Of a stretch of DNA of 33,705 nt, positions 5,925 through 33,550 are shown one piece after another. The stretch's first letter is position 1; every line of letters begins with the position of its first letter. The notes beneath the pieces were generated by a model, which was given only the letters and a program-made list of their open reading frames with translations, was not told where the DNA came from and made no database searches. The DNA is from Gammaproteobacteria bacterium (GTDB lineage Bacteria; Pseudomonadota; Gammaproteobacteria; Arenicellales; JAANXG01), in the NCBI GenBank assembly GCA_024639325.1, contig JAHEIO010000024.1, positions 1-33,705 on the forward strand, read 5' to 3'. The position numbers and the translations under genes were made by a program.

Positions 5925-6248
5925 GTGACATCGGATAGATGTCAATTCGTGACGTGTCCCTGCCCGGACCGGGAGGAGGCCGGCCGGATCGGTGGCGCAC
6001 TGGTCGGAAAGGGTCTGGCGGCCGCGGTCAACATCGTCCCACAGGACTCTGTCTACCGGTGGCGGGGGCAAGTCATGGAGACAAGGGAATATCTGCTGAT
6101 CATCAAAGGTCCACGGAATAGCTACAAACTGATCGAACGTACGATTTTGGATATGCACTCTTACGAACTGCCCGGCATCGCGGCAGTACCGGTGGTGGAT
6201 GGTTTCGAGCCCTATCTCGAGTGGATCGGGCGTGGGGGTGCGGGATGA
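5925..6248 (+). CDS. cutA: Divalent-cation tolerance protein CutA
   Basis: Small trimeric cytoplasmic protein of the CutA1 family (107 residues), linked to copper/divalent-cation tolerance and structurally related to PII signalling proteins; its molecular role remains debated. Family landmarks are visible: TCPCPD near the N-terminus, LVGKGLAAAVNI (27-38), SVYRWRGQV (42-50), EYLLIIK (55-61), and HSYELPGIAAVPV (78-90), followed by the terminal YLEWI. The start is a GTG at 5925 preceded by AAGG; an in-frame GTG at 5949 is possible. Its stop overlaps the dsbD start by four bases (ATGA), the same cutA-dsbD pairing found in E. coli. It is divergent from the hydrolase gene. Confidence 0.93.
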   Translation: MTSDRCQFVTCPCPDREEAGRIGGALVGKGLAAAVNIVPQDSVYRWRGQVMETREYLLIIKGPRNSYKLIERTILDMHSYELPGIAAVPVVDGFEPYLEWIGRGGAG

Positions 6249-8482
6249 GAACTCTGTTTGGCCTGGTGGCGCTTTGGGCAACCGCGACAGCCGCAGCATA
6301 CGCCCAGAGCGATGAACTGCTCGAACCCGAGAGGGCGTTTGCGCTTTCCGCAATGGCGTCAACTCCGGAACGGCTGTCGTTCACCTGGAACATTGCCGAT
6401 GGCTACTATATGTATCGGGACAAGTTCCGCGTCGAAGTGAAATCCGGCGAGGCCACCATCACAGAACTCGTCATGCCGGAAGGCAAGATGAAATCCGATG
6501 AGTTTTTTGGTGATCAGGAGGTATACACCGGTACGAAAGTCATCCACGCGCTTCTGGATCGCAATGGCGCCTCGCAACCAATCGACCTGGTAGTCGAAAT
6601 AACCGGCCAGGGCTGCAACGAACCCGTCGGCGTGTGTTACCCCCCGCTCAAACAGACTGTCTCGCTGCAGCTTGCGGAATTGGACGATGATGCGGTCAGC
6701 GCTTCTTTCCCGCCCGCAGAGCCGCTACCCGAGTCGAATTCTGGTGTCAGTTCACTGCAATCACTTAGGGACCTTCTCGGCGGGGTCCAGGGCGAACAGA
6801 CATTCCTGAGCCCCGAAGAGGCCTTTCGCTTCGACATGTATGCCCGGGACCCGGCCAATCTCGCCATCCGGTTCGATATCGCTGCAGGGTATTACCTGTA
6901 TCGCGACAAAATCAGTTTCAGGAGTCAGACCGATGGCGTCGGCCTGGCGGCCTACCAATTGCCACTTGGTGTCGAGAAAGAAGACGAATACTTCGGTAAA
7001 ACCGTGGTCTATTACGGTGGATTCGATACTTCGCTGCCGCTGCTGAATCATGAGCAGGGCGGTGGCAAGGCCACGTTCGTCGTAACCTATCAGGGCTGTG
7101 CCGAAAAGGGCATTTGCTACCCACCCATCGAAAAGAATGTCGTGGTCGACCTGCTGCCTTTCCAGGCGGCGTACGCCGCAGCTTCAATACCTCAAGAAGT
7201 GGCCGAAACCGCCGCCGACGGTTTCTGGGGCTATGTCATCGGCGCCTTCGGAGTGGGGCTGCTGCTCACTTTCACGCCCTGCGTTCTCCCGATGGTGCCG
7301 ATCATGTCGAGCTTCATCGTGGGGCAGAGCGATGGCACCAGCCGGATACGCGGCGGTATGCTCTCCGTCGTATATGTGTTGGGTACAGCAGTCACCTACA
7401 CGGCCGCGGGCGCCCTGGCGGGCGCCACCGGTGATCAGCTGCAGGCGTATTTCCAGAATATATGGTTCATAGGATTTCTCAGCACTATCCTGCTGATTCT
7501 GGCCCTGTCCATGTTCGATCTCTACGAACTGCAGATGCCGAGTTTCATTCAGTCCGGTCTGCAGCAAAAGACGCAGGGTATGACCGGAGGCGGTCTGATC
7601 ATGGTCTTCCTGCTGGGTGTGGTATCGGCGTTGATCGTGGGCGCATGCGTTTCTCCGTTGTTGATTGGTGCGCTGGGCGTGGCCATCCTGGAGGGCGATC
7701 CGGTACTGGGTGGTGCGATCATGTTTGCCATCGCAATGGGCATGGGCGTGTTCCTCGTGCTGATTGGTGTTGGTATGGGCAGTCTGGTGCCGAGGGCGGG
7801 GCCGTGGATGGCATATGTAAAGTACGGATTTGGCGTGGTTCTGATCGGAACCGCAATCTACCTGCTGGGCACGATTCCCTGGATTCCGGTGCTATACCTC
7901 TGGTCGGCCTTGCTTATTGTCACGGCGGTATACTGCGGCGCTCTTCATGCCCTTCCGGACGGCGCTAGTGGCTGGCGCTATCTGTGGAAGGGAATCGGTG
8001 TGTTCATGTTGGCCTGGGGCTTGCTCGCACTCGTGGGCGGGATGAGCGGCGGTCGCGATGTTCTGAAACCGGTGGATTTAAGAGCCTGGCGCACCCAGGC
8101 CGGTGACGCGTCGGGCGGGCACCTGCAGTTCACCGTGGTGAATAATCTGCAAAGCCTTGGTGAACAGCTTGCATCCGCCCGGCTGAGCGGTAAGCCCGCG
8201 ATGCTCGATTACTACGCCGATTGGTGCGTGGATTGTTTGCGTATGGAGGAGAGCACCTTCACCGATCCCCGGGTCTTGCAGGCCATGGAGGACTTTGTAC
8301 TGGTCCAGGTCGATGTTACCGACGCCACCGATCCGTCCGCCAAGGCGGTCAAGACACGCTACGGGGTCTACGGCCCTCCAGCCATGTTGTTCTTCGATGG
8401 CGACGGCCGGGAGCGCTCTGATCTCAGGCGCTACGGTTACATGTCACCGCGCGAGTTTCTCGCTCACGTCGACCAACTTTGA
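6245..8482 (+). CDS. dsbD: Thiol:disulfide interchange protein DsbD with duplicated N-terminal domain
   Basis: Inner-membrane reductase (745 residues) that carries electrons from cytoplasmic thioredoxin to periplasmic disulfide isomerases and cytochrome-maturation proteins. After a signal peptide (1-20) come two consecutive nDsbD-like domains: about 24-142 with cysteines C124 and C131, and about 187-304 with C285 and C291, both followed by YPP. E. coli DsbD has only one such domain (usual total about 565 residues). The first copy has six residues between its cysteines, the second the usual five. The membrane domain follows (about 328-600) with redox cysteines C346 (TFTPCVLPM) and C468 (GACVSP), then a thioredoxin domain with CVDC (661-664). 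ATG at 6245 overlaps the cutA stop; an in-frame upstream ATG at 6221 would spoil the signal peptide. Confidence 0.95.
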   Translation: MRTLFGLVALWATATAAAYAQSDELLEPERAFALSAMASTPERLSFTWNIADGYYMYRDKFRVEVKSGEATITELVMPEGKMKSDEFFGDQEVYTGTKVIHALLDRNGASQPIDLVVEITGQGCNEPVGVCYPPLKQTVSLQLAELDDDAVSASFPPAEPLPESNSGVSSLQSLRDLLGGVQGEQTFLSPEEAFRFDMYARDPANLAIRFDIAAGYYLYRDKISFRSQTDGVGLAAYQLPLGVEKEDEYFGKTVVYYGGFDTSLPLLNHEQGGGKATFVVTYQGCAEKGICYPPIEKNVVVDLLPFQAAYAAASIPQEVAETAADGFWGYVIGAFGVGLLLTFTPCVLPMVPIMSSFIVGQSDGTSRIRGGMLSVVYVLGTAVTYTAAGALAGATGDQLQAYFQNIWFIGFLSTILLILALSMFDLYELQMPSFIQSGLQQKTQGMTGGGLIMVFLLGVVSALIVGACVSPLLIGALGVAILEGDPVLGGAIMFAIAMGMGVFLVLIGVGMGSLVPRAGPWMAYVKYGFGVVLIGTAIYLLGTIPWIPVLYLWSALLIVTAVYCGALHALPDGASGWRYLWKGIGVFMLAWGLLALVGGMSGGRDVLKPVDLRAWRTQAGDASGGHLQFTVVNNLQSLGEQLASARLSGKPAMLDYYADWCVDCLRMEESTFTDPRVLQAMEDFVLVQVDVTDATDPSAKAVKTRYGVYGPPAMLFFDGDGRERSDLRRYGYMSPREFLAHVDQL

Positions 8483-8525: not shown

Positions 8526-9080
8526 ATGCGGGTAAAGTTGAAGAGAATCACGGCTTACGTTTTGTTCGGTGGCATGGCGCTCGTCTCCGGCATGGTGATA
8601 TCGTTGTACCTGGGCCCGACGCAAACGCTGCCGGTGGCCGACCACCGTGAAGTCTCTAATATCCCTTTGGTCGACCGTCCGCTTGCCGATCTCGGCGGAC
8701 GAACCCGATATCTGCGGGAATGGCAGGGCAAAAACCTTCTGGTCAATTTCTGGGCAACCTGGTGCGCCCCCTGCCGAGAGGAGATTCCTCTCCTGCAGAG
8801 CACCTGGGACCGCTACCGGGATCGTGGCATCGAGGTCATCGGTGTGGCTTTCGACGAGGAAAATCCGGTGAAGGCTTTCCGTGACGAATTGAAAATCCGC
8901 TACGAGCTGCTGCTGGCATTCGATGATCCGTTCTCTCTGCTCAGCCTGTCAGGCAACGAGGTGGGCGGCCTGCCGCACAGCGTGTTGCTAGACGTCAATG
9001 GAAACGTACTGGCGTCCCATACCGGTATTCTCACCGAAGTACTGCTCGAAGAGTTGATTCGAACCCACTTTTTTCGTTAA
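8526..9080 (+). CDS. TlpA-family thioredoxin-like protein, membrane anchored
   Basis: Periplasmic thiol-disulfide protein of 184 residues. An uncleaved N-terminal anchor (about 9-28) is followed by a TlpA/ResA-type thioredoxin fold with the active site WATWCAPC and the cis-proline region GGLPHSVLLD. Such proteins reduce apocytochrome c or other periplasmic disulfides and often take electrons from DsbD. DsbD is encoded immediately upstream (43-base gap), which supports that link. In many gammaproteobacteria aroQ (3-dehydroquinate dehydratase) lies between this gene and accB; here there is only a 130-base gap with no gene. The exact partner protein cannot be told from sequence. Confidence 0.9.
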   Translation: MRVKLKRITAYVLFGGMALVSGMVISLYLGPTQTLPVADHREVSNIPLVDRPLADLGGRTRYLREWQGKNLLVNFWATWCAPCREEIPLLQSTWDRYRDRGIEVIGVAFDEENPVKAFRDELKIRYELLLAFDDPFSLLSLSGNEVGGLPHSVLLDVNGNVLASHTGILTEVLLEELIRTHFFR

Positions 9081-29296: not shown

Positions 29297-30577
29297 TTAC
29301 CGCGGTTGCACGATCTTTCTCCCCGCAAACACTGCATTCTTCTTGCTGAGACAACGCTCGATGCGCAGGAGTTCATTCCACTTGGCCATGCGTTCGCTGC
29401 GGGCAAACGAGCCTACCTTGATCTGCCCCGCATTCGTCGCCACCGCAAGATGCGATATAAGCGTGTCCTCGGTCTCACCCGAGCGCGCCGACACCACGGG
29501 ACGCCAGCTTGACGCCTGGGTCAGTCGGATCGCAGCCAGGGTCTCGGTCAGGGTTCCGATCTGATTGGGTTTGATCAACACCGCATTGGCCAGGTTGCTC
29601 TCTACGCCTTTCTCGATCAGATGGATGTTGGTTGTAAACAGGTCGTCACCAATGAGTTGAATACGTTCCCCCAGTTCGGATCGAATCGACGCCCAGCCGT
29701 CCGGGTCCTGGTCCGAGAATGGGTCTTCCAGTGACACGATGGGATAGTTGGCGCACCATGCCGTGAACAAGCCGAGGAGTTCGTCACGGCTCAACGCACG
29801 GCCTTCCAGGCCGAATCGATATAACGCACCGTCATATAGCTCACTGGCCGCGACATCCAGCGCGATTGCCACGTCTTTACCAGGCGTATAACCGGCAAGT
29901 TCAATGCACTTCATGACCGCGTCGAGCACCTGGGTGTGACTGTCGAATTCCGGCCAGTATCCGCCCTCATCGGCGACGCCGAAATACTTCTTATGTTCCC
30001 GCATCCAATCTCCGGCGGCATGGTATACGTTGTGAGTGATCTCGAGACTCTGTGGAAAATCTTCTGCACCGACGGGGATGACAAGAAAGTCCTGGATATC
30101 CGTTCGCCATGCGCTGTGGGCTCCTCCACCAAACAGCTGGATCTGCGGCATCGGCATCAGGTACTCGCGACCGCCACCCAGATAATGGAACAGTGGCACC
30201 CGATCAACCGCGGCTGCTGCTTTGGCCACAGCCATCGATACCGCCAGGATTGCATTGCCACCCAGCCGGGATTTGTTCATGGTCCCGTCGAGGTCACACA
30301 TCGTATGGTCTACGGCTTCCTGGTCGAACACGTCCATGCCCTCGACAACGGGTGCGATTTCGCCTTCTATATTGCGCACCGCCGAGAACACGGCATCCCC
30401 CCTCAGCCGCCGCGGATCGCGATCACGGAGTTCGAGCGCCTCGGTGCGCCCGGTGGACGCCCCGGAGGGCACAAGTCCCGAGCCCACCGCACCGTTTTCC
30501 ATCGTGACGGTGCACTCCACGGTTGGTTTGCCGCGGGAATCGTATATCTGGAATGCCTCAACACGCTTGATTTTCAT
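29297..30577 (-). CDS. Divergent enolase-like protein
   Basis: 426-residue enolase-family protein. Retained (yeast numbering in brackets): loop serine S41 (S39), E204 in ADEGG (E211), metal ligands D241 (D246), E284 (E295) and D311 (D320), the catalytic base K336 (K345), R365 (R374) and K387 (K396), H154 (H159). Changed: the conserved glutamate of DIQEF is aspartate (D163; E168 in yeast) and the histidine of SHRSGETED is alanine (A364; H373). Both normally contact substrate. Canonical enolase makes phosphoenolpyruvate from 2-phosphoglycerate; with these changes another 2-phospho-acid is possible, or reduced activity. The start ATG 30577 overlaps the stop of the upstream kinase gene (ATGA); an in-frame GTG/ATG further upstream lies inside that gene. 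The normal partners pyrG or ftsB are absent. Confidence 0.85.
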   Translation of the reverse strand: MKIKRVEAFQIYDSRGKPTVECTVTMENGAVGSGLVPSGASTGRTEALELRDRDPRRLRGDAVFSAVRNIEGEIAPVVEGMDVFDQEAVDHTMCDLDGTMNKSRLGGNAILAVSMAVAKAAAAVDRVPLFHYLGGGREYLMPMPQIQLFGGGAHSAWRTDIQDFLVIPVGAEDFPQSLEITHNVYHAAGDWMREHKKYFGVADEGGYWPEFDSHTQVLDAVMKCIELAGYTPGKDVAIALDVAASELYDGALYRFGLEGRALSRDELLGLFTAWCANYPIVSLEDPFSDQDPDGWASIRSELGERIQLIGDDLFTTNIHLIEKGVESNLANAVLIKPNQIGTLTETLAAIRLTQASSWRPVVSARSGETEDTLISHLAVATNAGQIKVGSFARSERMAKWNELLRIERCLSKKNAVFAGRKIVQPR

Positions 30578-31584
30578 GGTGTCGTACCCTGCTCCATGGC
30601 GTCTATTCGTTGCGCCCAAAGGCTGCAGATTTCGTCCACTGCAAATATCCGCCGCGGCAGCAGCGAGTAGACGAAGTCACGTACAACCTGCCTCGACAAG
30701 TCGTCTTCAAGGTACTCTACGGGAGACTTTCCATCTACGCGGGCCAGCATCAACATCAGCAACAAACGTCCCGTGCGCTGTTCCATATCCGGTTCGATTT
30801 TTGGGAAACAGGCGCGGTAGCTATCCCAGCCCGCGGGTACCAGCGACAGGTAGCGGTGATAGTTGCCACGATCCAAAAGGGTTTTGAGCAGGAAGTGATT
30901 GAACAGGAAAGCCGCGTCGAACGCGGGTTCACCAAACCAGGCCACTTCACAATCGAGCAGCACCATGGCGTCCGAGCCAATCATGATGTTCTTGGGGCTG
31001 AAGTCCCCGTGTATCAAACACCGGCGGGTTTCCTCCAGCCGCCTTGCCTCGTCTTTGATCTGTTTGCTGAGCGGCGGGTGCCGTGCGGCGGTCGTCAACA
31101 GGTAGGGCTCGGTGCGCAGCGCGTGAAAGGACCGGGTCGTGTCGAACTGCCGCTTCAGCGATGGGTCGCCCCAGGTTTTCCGATGAATCGTACCCAGCAT
31201 GCCGCCGGCCTGCCGCGCCAGATCGGAATCCACATCGCCCGCCATCAGCATTGACTTCCAGTTTTTGCTGTGCGCGAGGTATTCCATGGCGAAGTAGTTG
31301 AGTTCCGCGTTGCAGTGCAGAATCCGCGGCATGGACCGAGGAAGGAAACCCGATACGTGACGGATGAACCGCTGTTCCGTAACATTGCGCGACACATCCA
31401 CCTGCCAGTCGTCTTTGACCTTCAGCCTGTCGAGGGCCTGCTTGACCACGATCCTGCGCTTGCCGTCGTCGATCAAATAGATGTCCGATGACACGCCGCC
31501 CGACATCGGCGTCACGCTGGATCCCGAGGCACGCAGCAATCCGCATTGAACGAGGTCGTTCTCGATCTGCTCAATGCGCGTCAC
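30574..31584 (-). CDS. APH/MtnK-type small-molecule kinase
   Basis: 336-residue protein of the aminoglycoside phosphotransferase/choline kinase fold. Visible kinase residues: K48 (IVVKQAL), the catalytic IHGDFSPKN (191-199) with D194 and N199, and the metal-binding DCE (211-213) followed by FGEPAFDAAF. The last pattern resembles 5-methylthioribose kinase (FYGPxGFD) more than antibiotic kinases, so a sugar, sugar-acid or similar alcohol is a more likely substrate than an antibiotic. The start is GTG 31584 with an AAGG site 7 bases upstream. Its stop overlaps the enolase-like gene start, so the two proteins are made together. A divergent MFS gene begins 60 bases away. Confidence 0.82.
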   Translation of the reverse strand: MTRIEQIENDLVQCGLLRASGSSVTPMSGGVSSDIYLIDDGKRRIVVKQALDRLKVKDDWQVDVSRNVTEQRFIRHVSGFLPRSMPRILHCNAELNYFAMEYLAHSKNWKSMLMAGDVDSDLARQAGGMLGTIHRKTWGDPSLKRQFDTTRSFHALRTEPYLLTTAARHPPLSKQIKDEARRLEETRRCLIHGDFSPKNIMIGSDAMVLLDCEVAWFGEPAFDAAFLFNHFLLKTLLDRGNYHRYLSLVPAGWDSYRACFPKIEPDMEQRTGRLLLMLMLARVDGKSPVEYLEDDLSRQVVRDFVYSLLPRRIFAVDEICSLWAQRIDAMEQGTTP

Positions 31585-31644
31585 GTCCGGACCTTAGTAA
31601 TCGAAATAGCTGTTAGACTTCGCGGTTTTGCAGGAATAAAATCC

Positions 31645-32829
31645 GTGCCGGCACGCTTCAGGACCCCCGAATACCTTTTGATCTTCCTCGCGATCGGGTC
31701 TTCGCTGTCGTTTTCCGTCTGGCATGCCCTGCTCAACAACTTTGCCGTAGAGCAGGCGGCGTTTACGGGAAGGGAGATCGGGATCCTGCAAAGTCTGCGC
31801 GAGGTGCCCGGATTCCTGGCTTTCACGGCGGTCTTCCTTCTGCTGGTCATAAGGGAGCAGGTGTTTGCCCTGCTGGCGGTTTGTCTGCTGGGCATCGGTG
31901 TCGCCATGACGGGATTCATGCCCAGCGAGTATGGTCTGTATTTCACCACCGTACTGATGTCCGTCGGATTCCACTACTATTATACGTTGCAGCAATCGCT
32001 CACACTGCAATGGATAGACAAGGGCCGCTCTCCAGTGGTCATGGGGCGGCAGTCATCCGCTTCGTCCATTGCGGCGTTGATTGCTTTCGGCAGCATCTGG
32101 CTGGGAACGGAATATCTCGACATCGAATTCAAGTGGATGTACCTGGCGGCAGGAGGCATCGCGTTATTGATTGCTCTCGGGGCCTGGTTGATGTTCCCCC
32201 ACTTTTCACACAGCGTGCCGCAGCGCAAACATCTGTTTCTCCGCAGGCGCTACTGGCTTTACTACGCGCTTACATTTATGAGCGGCGCGCGCAGGCAGAT
32301 ATTCATCGTGTTCGCCGGGTTCCTGATGGTGGAGAAATTCGGTTTCTCGGCGGCGGATATCGCGCTCCTGTTTCTCATCAACCACATCATCAATGCACTG
32401 CTGGCCCCTAAAATCGGTCGTTTCATTGTCCGCTTCGGAGAGCGTCTCGCGTTGACCTTGGAGTATCTCGGACTGATCGTTATTTTCATCGCCTACGCCA
32501 TCGTAGAAGTGGCATGGATTGCGGCACTGCTATATGTTCTCGACCATGTGCTGTTTGCCATGGCTATAGGCATAAAAAGCTATTTCCAGAAAATTGCCGA
32601 TCCCGCGGATATGGCATCCACCTCGGGCGTGTCCTTTACCATCAATCACATTGCCGCGGTCGTTATTCCCATCACGTTCGGCTTTATCTGGCTGCACTCC
32701 CCTGCCGTTGTTTTCCTGGCCGGTGCCGCGATGGCGGTTGTATCATTATTGCTGGCCCGGTTGGTGCCCGTCGATCCGGGTAATCGGGGTCAGAGAACAA
32801 TTGTTGGTAATATAAGCATGCTCAAATAA
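31645..32829 (+). CDS. MFS transporter with mobile-element-derived C-terminus
   Basis: 394-residue polytopic protein with about twelve membrane spans in two halves, as in the major facilitator superfamily; a basic loop after the sixth span (SVPQRKHLFLRRRYW) separates them. The substrate is unknown. I chose GTG 31645 because AGGAA lies 8 bases upstream and it directly precedes the first span (MPARFRTPEYLLIFL); an earlier TTG at 31546 overlaps the divergent kinase gene. Residues 379-394 (GNRGQRTIVGNISMLK) are encoded by the left inverted repeat of the RAYT element and adjoining bases, so the natural C-terminus has been replaced. The last span ends before this, so the protein may still work. Confidence 0.85.
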   Translation: MPARFRTPEYLLIFLAIGSSLSFSVWHALLNNFAVEQAAFTGREIGILQSLREVPGFLAFTAVFLLLVIREQVFALLAVCLLGIGVAMTGFMPSEYGLYFTTVLMSVGFHYYYTLQQSLTLQWIDKGRSPVVMGRQSSASSIAALIAFGSIWLGTEYLDIEFKWMYLAAGGIALLIALGAWLMFPHFSHSVPQRKHLFLRRRYWLYYALTFMSGARRQIFIVFAGFLMVEKFGFSAADIALLFLINHIINALLAPKIGRFIVRFGERLALTLEYLGLIVIFIAYAIVEVAWIAALLYVLDHVLFAMAIGIKSYFQKIADPADMASTSGVSFTINHIAAVVIPITFGFIWLHSPAVVFLAGAAMAVVSLLLARLVPVDPGNRGQRTIVGNISMLK

Positions 32830-32857
32830 TGGAATTCATCATGCAAGGGAGTTGCAT

Positions 32858-33550
32858 ATGCCTAGGAAGCCACGCTTTCACCTACCTGGTTATCCCCAGC
32901 ACGTCATTCAGCGCGGTAACAACCGCGAACCGTGCTTCTTTGAAGCGGCGGATTTTCGTTTTTACCTGGATAGCCTTGGCAAGGCCTGCGTCCGGTTTGG
33001 GTGTTCGGTGCATGCGTACGTGTTGATGACCAACCACGTACATCTGTTGCTGACGCCACACGCGGAGCATAGTATTTCCCAAGTCATGCAGTCGCTGGGG
33101 TGTCGCTATGTGCGTTACGTTAACCAGGCCTATCTACGCACGGGCACCTTGTGGGAAGGCCGGTACAGGGCCGGCCTGGTGGAGGCGGACGGGTACCTCC
33201 TGAGTTTGTATCGCTATATCGAGATGAATCCCGTGCGCGCGGGCATGGTTACGGATCCGGCAGATTATCCGTGGTCCAGTTATCGCTCTAACGGCAAGGG
33301 CGAGCCGGATCCGCTTATTACGCCCCATGCCTTGTATTTAGGCCTCGCTGCAGAGGCGAAAACAAGATTTCGAACATATCGCGCGCTGTTTGGCACACCC
33401 CTCGATTCCGATCAGCTTCAAGAAATCCGGCACACCGTGAACCATGAGTTAGCGCTGGGTAACGATCGTTTCAAAGACAATGTCGAGTCCATGACCCATC
33501 GGCGAACGCGCCTTGGCCAAGCCGGCCGACCAAGGAATAAACTGAATTAG
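32858..33550 (+). CDS. REP-associated tyrosine transposase (RAYT, Y1/IS200-like)
   Basis: 230-residue HUH-type DNA transposase. The N-terminus MPRKPRFHLPGYPQHVIQRG is typical of the family, the HUH metal-binding motif is HVH (60-62, in TNHVHLLLTP), and the likely catalytic tyrosine is Y120 in YRYIEMNPVRAG (118-129), followed by DPADYPWSSYRSN. These enzymes cleave single-stranded DNA at REP palindromes and are thought to have spread REPs; most are single-copy and domesticated. The ATG at 32858 has AGGGAG 7 bases upstream; a TTG two codons earlier is less likely. The coding frame is complete, so the enzyme may be active. It lies between inverted repeats (see the element entry). Confidence 0.9.
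   Translation: MPRKPRFHLPGYPQHVIQRGNNREPCFFEAADFRFYLDSLGKACVRFGCSVHAYVLMTNHVHLLLTPHAEHSISQVMQSLGCRYVRYVNQAYLRTGTLWEGRYRAGLVEADGYLLSLYRYIEMNPVRAGMVTDPADYPWSSYRSNGKGEPDPLITPHALYLGLAAEAKTRFRTYRALFGTPLDSDQLQEIRHTVNHELALGNDRFKDNVESMTHRRTRLGQAGRPRNKLN

Follow-up and report, generated by a model that had tools for sequence, protein, structure and literature searches.

A tandem-alpha DsbD of Gammaproteobacteria with two apparently redox-competent N-terminal domains

DsbD carries reducing power from the cell interior outward, for the maturation and repair of proteins outside; textbooks describe it as a relay with a single head, by which periplasmic isomerases and cytochrome c maturation are kept reduced. 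In ScsB, only one of the two immunoglobulin domains is known to carry a catalytic pair. The periplasmic N-terminal part of the Proteus mirabilis ScsB (PDB 6c29) is said to hold tandem immunoglobulin folds (Furlong et al. 2018). No description of a DsbD with two N-terminal (alpha, or nDsbD) domains was found among the papers listed from one open-access library, a coverage outside which the subscription literature largely falls. Passages of PMC8900818 present ScsB as a membrane reductase of the alpha-beta-gamma type, and those of PMC7347389 on nDsbD describe how, in E. coli, one such domain hands electrons to DsbC, CcmG and DsbG.

The protein described here is encoded on contig JAHEIO010000024.1 of assembly GCA_024639325.1, analysed as one stretch of 33,705 nt (hereafter the window). 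Its domains follow the same order as in the DsbD proteins of E. coli and Neisseria meningitidis, with the same catalytic cysteine pairs, the nDsbD fold and the cap loop, and it shares with E. coli a cutA gene just upstream. Its score against NCBIfam PRK00293 (594.2 bits; cut-off 330) identifies it as DsbD, and it holds an alpha domain with a cysteine pair, twice, a DsbD_TM domain with two cysteines, and a gamma domain with CxxC. Unlike the E. coli and N. meningitidis proteins, which have one alpha, it has two; the single alpha is a trait of the characterised E. coli member, and not of the family models. Both matches to DsbD_N (PF11412; cut-off 25 bits) have E-values, about 1e-28 and 1e-30, that exclude chance as their source, and no third DsbD_N was found at E <= 0.001 in the window's own assembly (95.6% complete, 352 contigs). 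The sequence-only reading had proposed two tandem nDsbD-like domains at 6317-7153, with cysteine pairs before YPP spaced C-x6-C and then C-x5-C, ahead of one membrane and one thioredoxin domain. This was borne out in each respect: two DsbD_N matches each have their own pair, spaced as described, Pfam places a single DsbD_TM and a single thioredoxin-type domain behind them, and the proposed span is accurate to about 10 bases (Table 1).

The open frame at 6221-8482 (+) comprises 753 codons, with GTG 6221 as an alternative start; ATG 6245 is the likelier start of dsbD. The cutA stop and this ATG overlap as ATGA (6245-6248), which suggests coupled translation. The thioredoxin-fold protein encoded just 3' of dsbD scores 85.8 bits against ResA and 71.9 bits against TlpA, both below the NCBIfam cut-offs, and is a possible DsbD partner. 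Towards the far end of the window, an enolase-like frame (29297-30619, -) overlaps a phosphotransferase/kinase-like frame (30574-31584, -), both so judged by eye, with a transporter-like frame (31546-32829, +) beside the pair, an odd setting for an enolase. Near the window end, the frame at 32852-33550 (+) has, by eye, the look of a REP-associated (Y1-type) transposase.

Table 1. Features of the dsbD locus. Positions are window nucleotides; residue numbers of the window DsbD count from GTG 6221.
Feature	Position	Strand	Basis
cutA, directly 5' of dsbD	5925..6248	+	Pfam CutA1, 93.6 bits
dsbD, alpha1-alpha2-beta-gamma	6245..8482	+	Pfam, NCBIfam PRK00293
Probable signal peptide of dsbD	6245..6304	+	Judged by eye, no predictor
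nDsbD (alpha) copy 1, residues 31-149	6311..6667	+	Pfam DsbD_N PF11412, 100 bits
Copy 1 pair C132-x6-C139, GC-NEPVGV-C-YPP	6614..6637	+	Sequence read
Linker alpha1-alpha2	6668..6796	+	Middle pLDDT under 50, model residues 143-149 and 159-162
nDsbD (alpha) copy 2, residues 193-308	6797..7144	+	Pfam DsbD_N PF11412, 105.9 bits
Copy 2 pair C293-x5-C299, GC-AEKGI-C-YPP	7097..7117	+	Sequence read
Membrane (beta) domain DsbD_TM, C354 (7280), C476 (7646)	7226..7873	+	PF02683, 240 bits
C-terminal thioredoxin (gamma), WCVDC, C669/C672 (8225, 8234)	8144..8398	+	PF13899 (Thioredoxin_7), 51.7 bits
TlpA/ResA-like thioredoxin-fold protein, WCAPC, just 3' of dsbD	8526..9080	+	AhpC-TSA/Redoxin match

Searched singly against the PDB by sequence, copy 1 matches nDsbD at 1.7e-15 and copy 2 at 9.3e-21, with each recovering both the E. 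coli and the Neisseria nDsbD chains. Both copies are also predicted to fold like crystallised nDsbD. AlphaFold2 modelled the two alphas together (61 relatives aligned) with a mean pLDDT of 88.3, the cores mostly above 90 and the linker of low confidence; a pTM of 0.53 means that the mutual orientation of the two domains is not fixed in this model. Copy 1 modelled alone gave a mean pLDDT of 94.2. The best VIA match of the copy 1 model is 1vrs_C (Z 16.5, rmsd 1.7, 112 residues aligned), and that of the copy 2 model is 6dps_D (Z 16.8, rmsd 1.6, 117 aligned), so structure prediction, the check proposed by the sequence-only reading, gives an nDsbD fold with Z of about 16 to each and points to no copy lacking the fold. 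Matches to viral E1, the adaptin appendage and others, scoring far below nDsbD, were set aside as the common sandwich fold.

The architecture is not peculiar to this genome. An even sample of the class, 75 genomes with that of the window among them, has DsbD_N in 70, and 27 of these 70 have two copies in one frame, so that the survey of domain copy number suggested with the initial reading finds the tandem to be far from rare. The other 43 genomes, with no visible tandem, comprise 38 with a single-alpha protein that has a membrane match, the partial frames L231 and L269, and three genomes (G012, G023 and G029) with a Pfam DsbD_N match and no match in the custom profile. In G012 the match is weak (E 2.3e-6) and sits close to the C-terminus of a protein of 823 aa (L270:3973-6444, -) that does not look DsbD-like; the N-terminal part of this protein resembles, by eye, the DUF255/thioredoxin type. 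In a larger draw, 339 of 370 genomes carry DsbD_N, and many of them give at least two matches. Within the window's own family, the pair was seen by eye in one frame in 10 of 12 relatives, with the other two on short frames. Taken together, the class-sample and family counts make the tandem a widespread architecture. A similarity look-up returned 80 loci, a set biased towards the query, and in 74 of them a single frame encodes both alphas together with a membrane and a thioredoxin domain. Thiobacillus denitrificans RG (L081), Methylotetracoccus oryzae (L046) and Methylolobus aquaticus (L068) have the same two-alpha architecture and both cysteine pairs, with no architectural difference seen; compared with the window protein along the best segment, they are only 37-40% identical (40, 39 and 38%). 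A draw of 80 genomes from the phylum included 20 from the window's class; of the 60 from elsewhere in the phylum, 21 carry DsbD_N, and no tandem was seen by eye in these 21, a count that a strongly diverged first domain would escape with this model.

Both cysteines are kept in both copies in all 27 tandem proteins of the class sample. The same holds in a similarity-biased alignment of 94 tandem proteins, from which seven rows were dropped (L002 and L086 as duplicate loci, L052 and L069 as partial or broken): C103 and C109 (E. coli numbering, as below) are present in every row of both copies, as are Y40 and Y42, with the cap-loop residues D68 (100% in copy 1, 96% in copy 2) and G72 (98% and 97%) nearly so. 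The median identity between the two copies of a protein is only 41% (range 35-55%; 38% in the window), which makes them about as divergent as copies taken from different proteins, so retention of the cysteines does not simply reflect recent duplication, and selection appears to maintain both pairs. On this comparative evidence both alphas of the tandem DsbD are apparently redox-competent.

With the predicted folds and the conserved pairs, two donors on one relay is the natural reading. Electrons would pass from cytoplasmic thioredoxin to the membrane domain, on to the C-terminal thioredoxin domain and from there to either alpha, each of which would reduce periplasmic thioredoxin-fold partners (DsbC-type proteins, CcmG and perhaps the TlpA-like neighbour). 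The protein would thereby act as one membrane relay with two docking heads on a flexible tether, gamma reducing both heads, both heads acting on partners, and the partners overlapping. That the two alphas are redox-competent and work mainly in parallel, on largely overlapping partners, is the reading we consider probable.

A less likely reading, the one offered from the sequence alone, keeps gamma feeding both alphas and has each head favour different periplasmic partners. The clearest difference between the copies lies at the position of E. coli Y100, the third codon before the first active-site cysteine. It is aromatic in 26 of 27 second copies and 34 of 38 single alphas (one unreadable), and in only 7 of 27 first copies, the other 20 being non-aromatic and the residue usually small (copy 1 versus copy 2, Fisher p 9e-8, kinship ignored); the window has G in copy 1 (6605-6607) and Y in copy 2 (7088-7090). 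Among the sequence features, this one hints most strongly at unequal roles. Cap position 70 varies in both copies: F or Y occurs there in 18 of 27 first copies, 11 of 27 second copies and 10 of 38 singles, as read with a simple motif that could not be placed in 2, 1 and 10 rows respectively; in the passages of PMC7347389, 134 surveyed nDsbD sequences have F or Y there in 53%. The spacing contrast between the window's two pairs, which the initial reading had also seen, is real and does not carry over into evidence for specialisation: among the 27 tandems, 6 have C-x6-C in copy 1 and 4 have C-x6-C or C-x7-C in copy 2, and 4 of the 38 singles have C-x6-C. As a functional signal it was rejected in favour of ordinary loop variation.

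Partner genes speak on both sides of this reading. The window genome holds two DsbC_N matches and one CcmG over the cut-off, with seven weaker matches to the CcmG model, the TlpA-like neighbour among them. DsbC_N is enriched in tandem genomes (26/27, versus 31/43 of the other genomes with DsbD_N; p 0.012, kinship ignored), whereas CcmG at E <= 1e-30 is about equally frequent (22/27 versus 33/43, p 0.77). DsbC-type and CcmG-type genes occur together in 22 of the 27 tandem genomes, and also in 24 of the 43 without a visible tandem. A TlpA-like gene lies 3' of dsbD in 15 of 26 tandem and 10 of 38 single-alpha loci (p 0.018); the 27th tandem (L221), which had no membrane match in the script and so stands outside the neighbour table, has no such neighbour. 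However, cutA adjoins dsbD in 23 of 26 tandem versus 14 of 38 single loci (p 4e-5), and among cutA-linked genes the association vanishes (15/23 versus 8/14, p 0.73), so that the TlpA-like neighbour was discarded as the reason for a second head; an independent-pairs test on it had 5 pairs only, putting significance out of reach. The example offered with the sequence-only reading, in which one copy would serve the TlpA-like protein and the other an isomerase, gains no specific support from these counts. Its broader proposal of two terminal donors on one relay holds at the level of sequence and prediction, in the folds and in the pairs kept in 27/27 and 94/94 proteins, and lacks support in the division of partners. 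As the single nDsbD of E. coli serves several partners, and both partner types are encoded in 24 of the 43 genomes that show no tandem, a need for separate ones does not follow, although there may be one.

Nor do the copies form two clean clades, which also speaks against specialisation. Trees of the alpha domain require 7 changes for copy 1 in a quick version (180 rows) and 13 in a careful one (92 rows), yet a single clade for copy 1 is not rejected (AU p 0.34), and a single duplication leaving two clean clades does not emerge from these trees; the domain alignment, of 117 columns, is too short to settle the number of duplications. In four proteins the copies are nearest each other (L220, support 98/84; L235, 93/83; L218, 83/67; L245, 83/74), and separate or recent duplications, or homogenisation, are possible in lineages such as these. 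When the membrane and thioredoxin domains are put on a quick tree, tandems and singles interleave, with 10 changes, at least 5 of them forced by supported branches, and all 26 tandems included fall in one group of 43 alongside 17 singles (modest support of 81, midpoint root). This interleaving implies that one alpha is often enough, and a fair reading of the tree would be the loss of one head in several lineages.

A serial relay, in which gamma would reduce alpha2, alpha2 would reduce alpha1 and alpha1 alone would meet partners, is very unlikely. Alpha2 does adjoin the membrane domain, and the linker between the alphas is flexible; against this, many DsbDs have one alpha only, and in the passages of PMC7347389 on nDsbD the domain exchanges with thioredoxin-fold proteins (cDsbD, DsbC, CcmG and DsbG), an exchange between two immunoglobulin-fold alphas not being described there. 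Also very unlikely is that one copy serves as a mere spacer or docking domain, as one of the two immunoglobulin domains of ScsB does: the ScsB N-terminal domain in 6c29 is the structural match of copy 1 that follows the nDsbD entries (Z 10.8, 112 residues; in a second comparison Z 10.5, 111 residues, at 15% identity; copy 1 alone aligned in both), but both copies keep their cysteines in every tandem protein compared. A Foldseek alignment to 6c29 over both domains has an rmsd of 18.6, and ScsB is absent among the PDB chains listed by the tandem sequence profile at E <= 10.

A further arrangement occurs in a sister family (f202) of the same order as the window, in which five genomes (G447, G455, G460, G466 and G476) have DsbD split in two genes; a sixth, G471, with fragmentary frames, was left out of this survey. 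The first gene (L198 and L271-L274, the latter four being loci of the order survey and outside the class counts) encodes 626-672 aa with two alphas and beta, without gamma, and is followed by a TlpA-like gene. The second, located elsewhere (L293-L297), encodes a beta'-gamma protein of 458-499 aa. In the alignment, the gamma CxxC is intact in all five beta'-gamma proteins, and both beta cysteines are kept in all five alpha-alpha-beta proteins. Beta' has a cysteine at both positions in G460 and at the first alone in G466, and lacks both in G447, G455 and G476; Pfam DsbD_TM matches the beta' of G466 (37 bits) and gives no match in that of G447. Judged from these sequences the arrangement looks like a natural split of DsbD, and with gamma on a separate polypeptide, gamma would have to act in trans. 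It is conceivable, though we put it forward tentatively, that tandem DsbDs are two-headed hubs, with unlike partner choice or reactivity in the two heads, the entrance of copy 2 being as in singles (aromatic at position 100) and that of copy 1 remodelled, and that one sister lineage runs such a hub with gamma on a second polypeptide that, in the majority of the genomes examined, no longer has its own catalytic cysteines in the membrane part.

The tandem DsbD is a variant of domain architecture, and not a new mechanism. More than a third of the class-sample genomes with DsbD_N (27/70) have a DsbD with two heads in which both active sites are kept, and such proteins let one ask whether a reducing hub of this kind is limited by its docking sites or by partner specificity.
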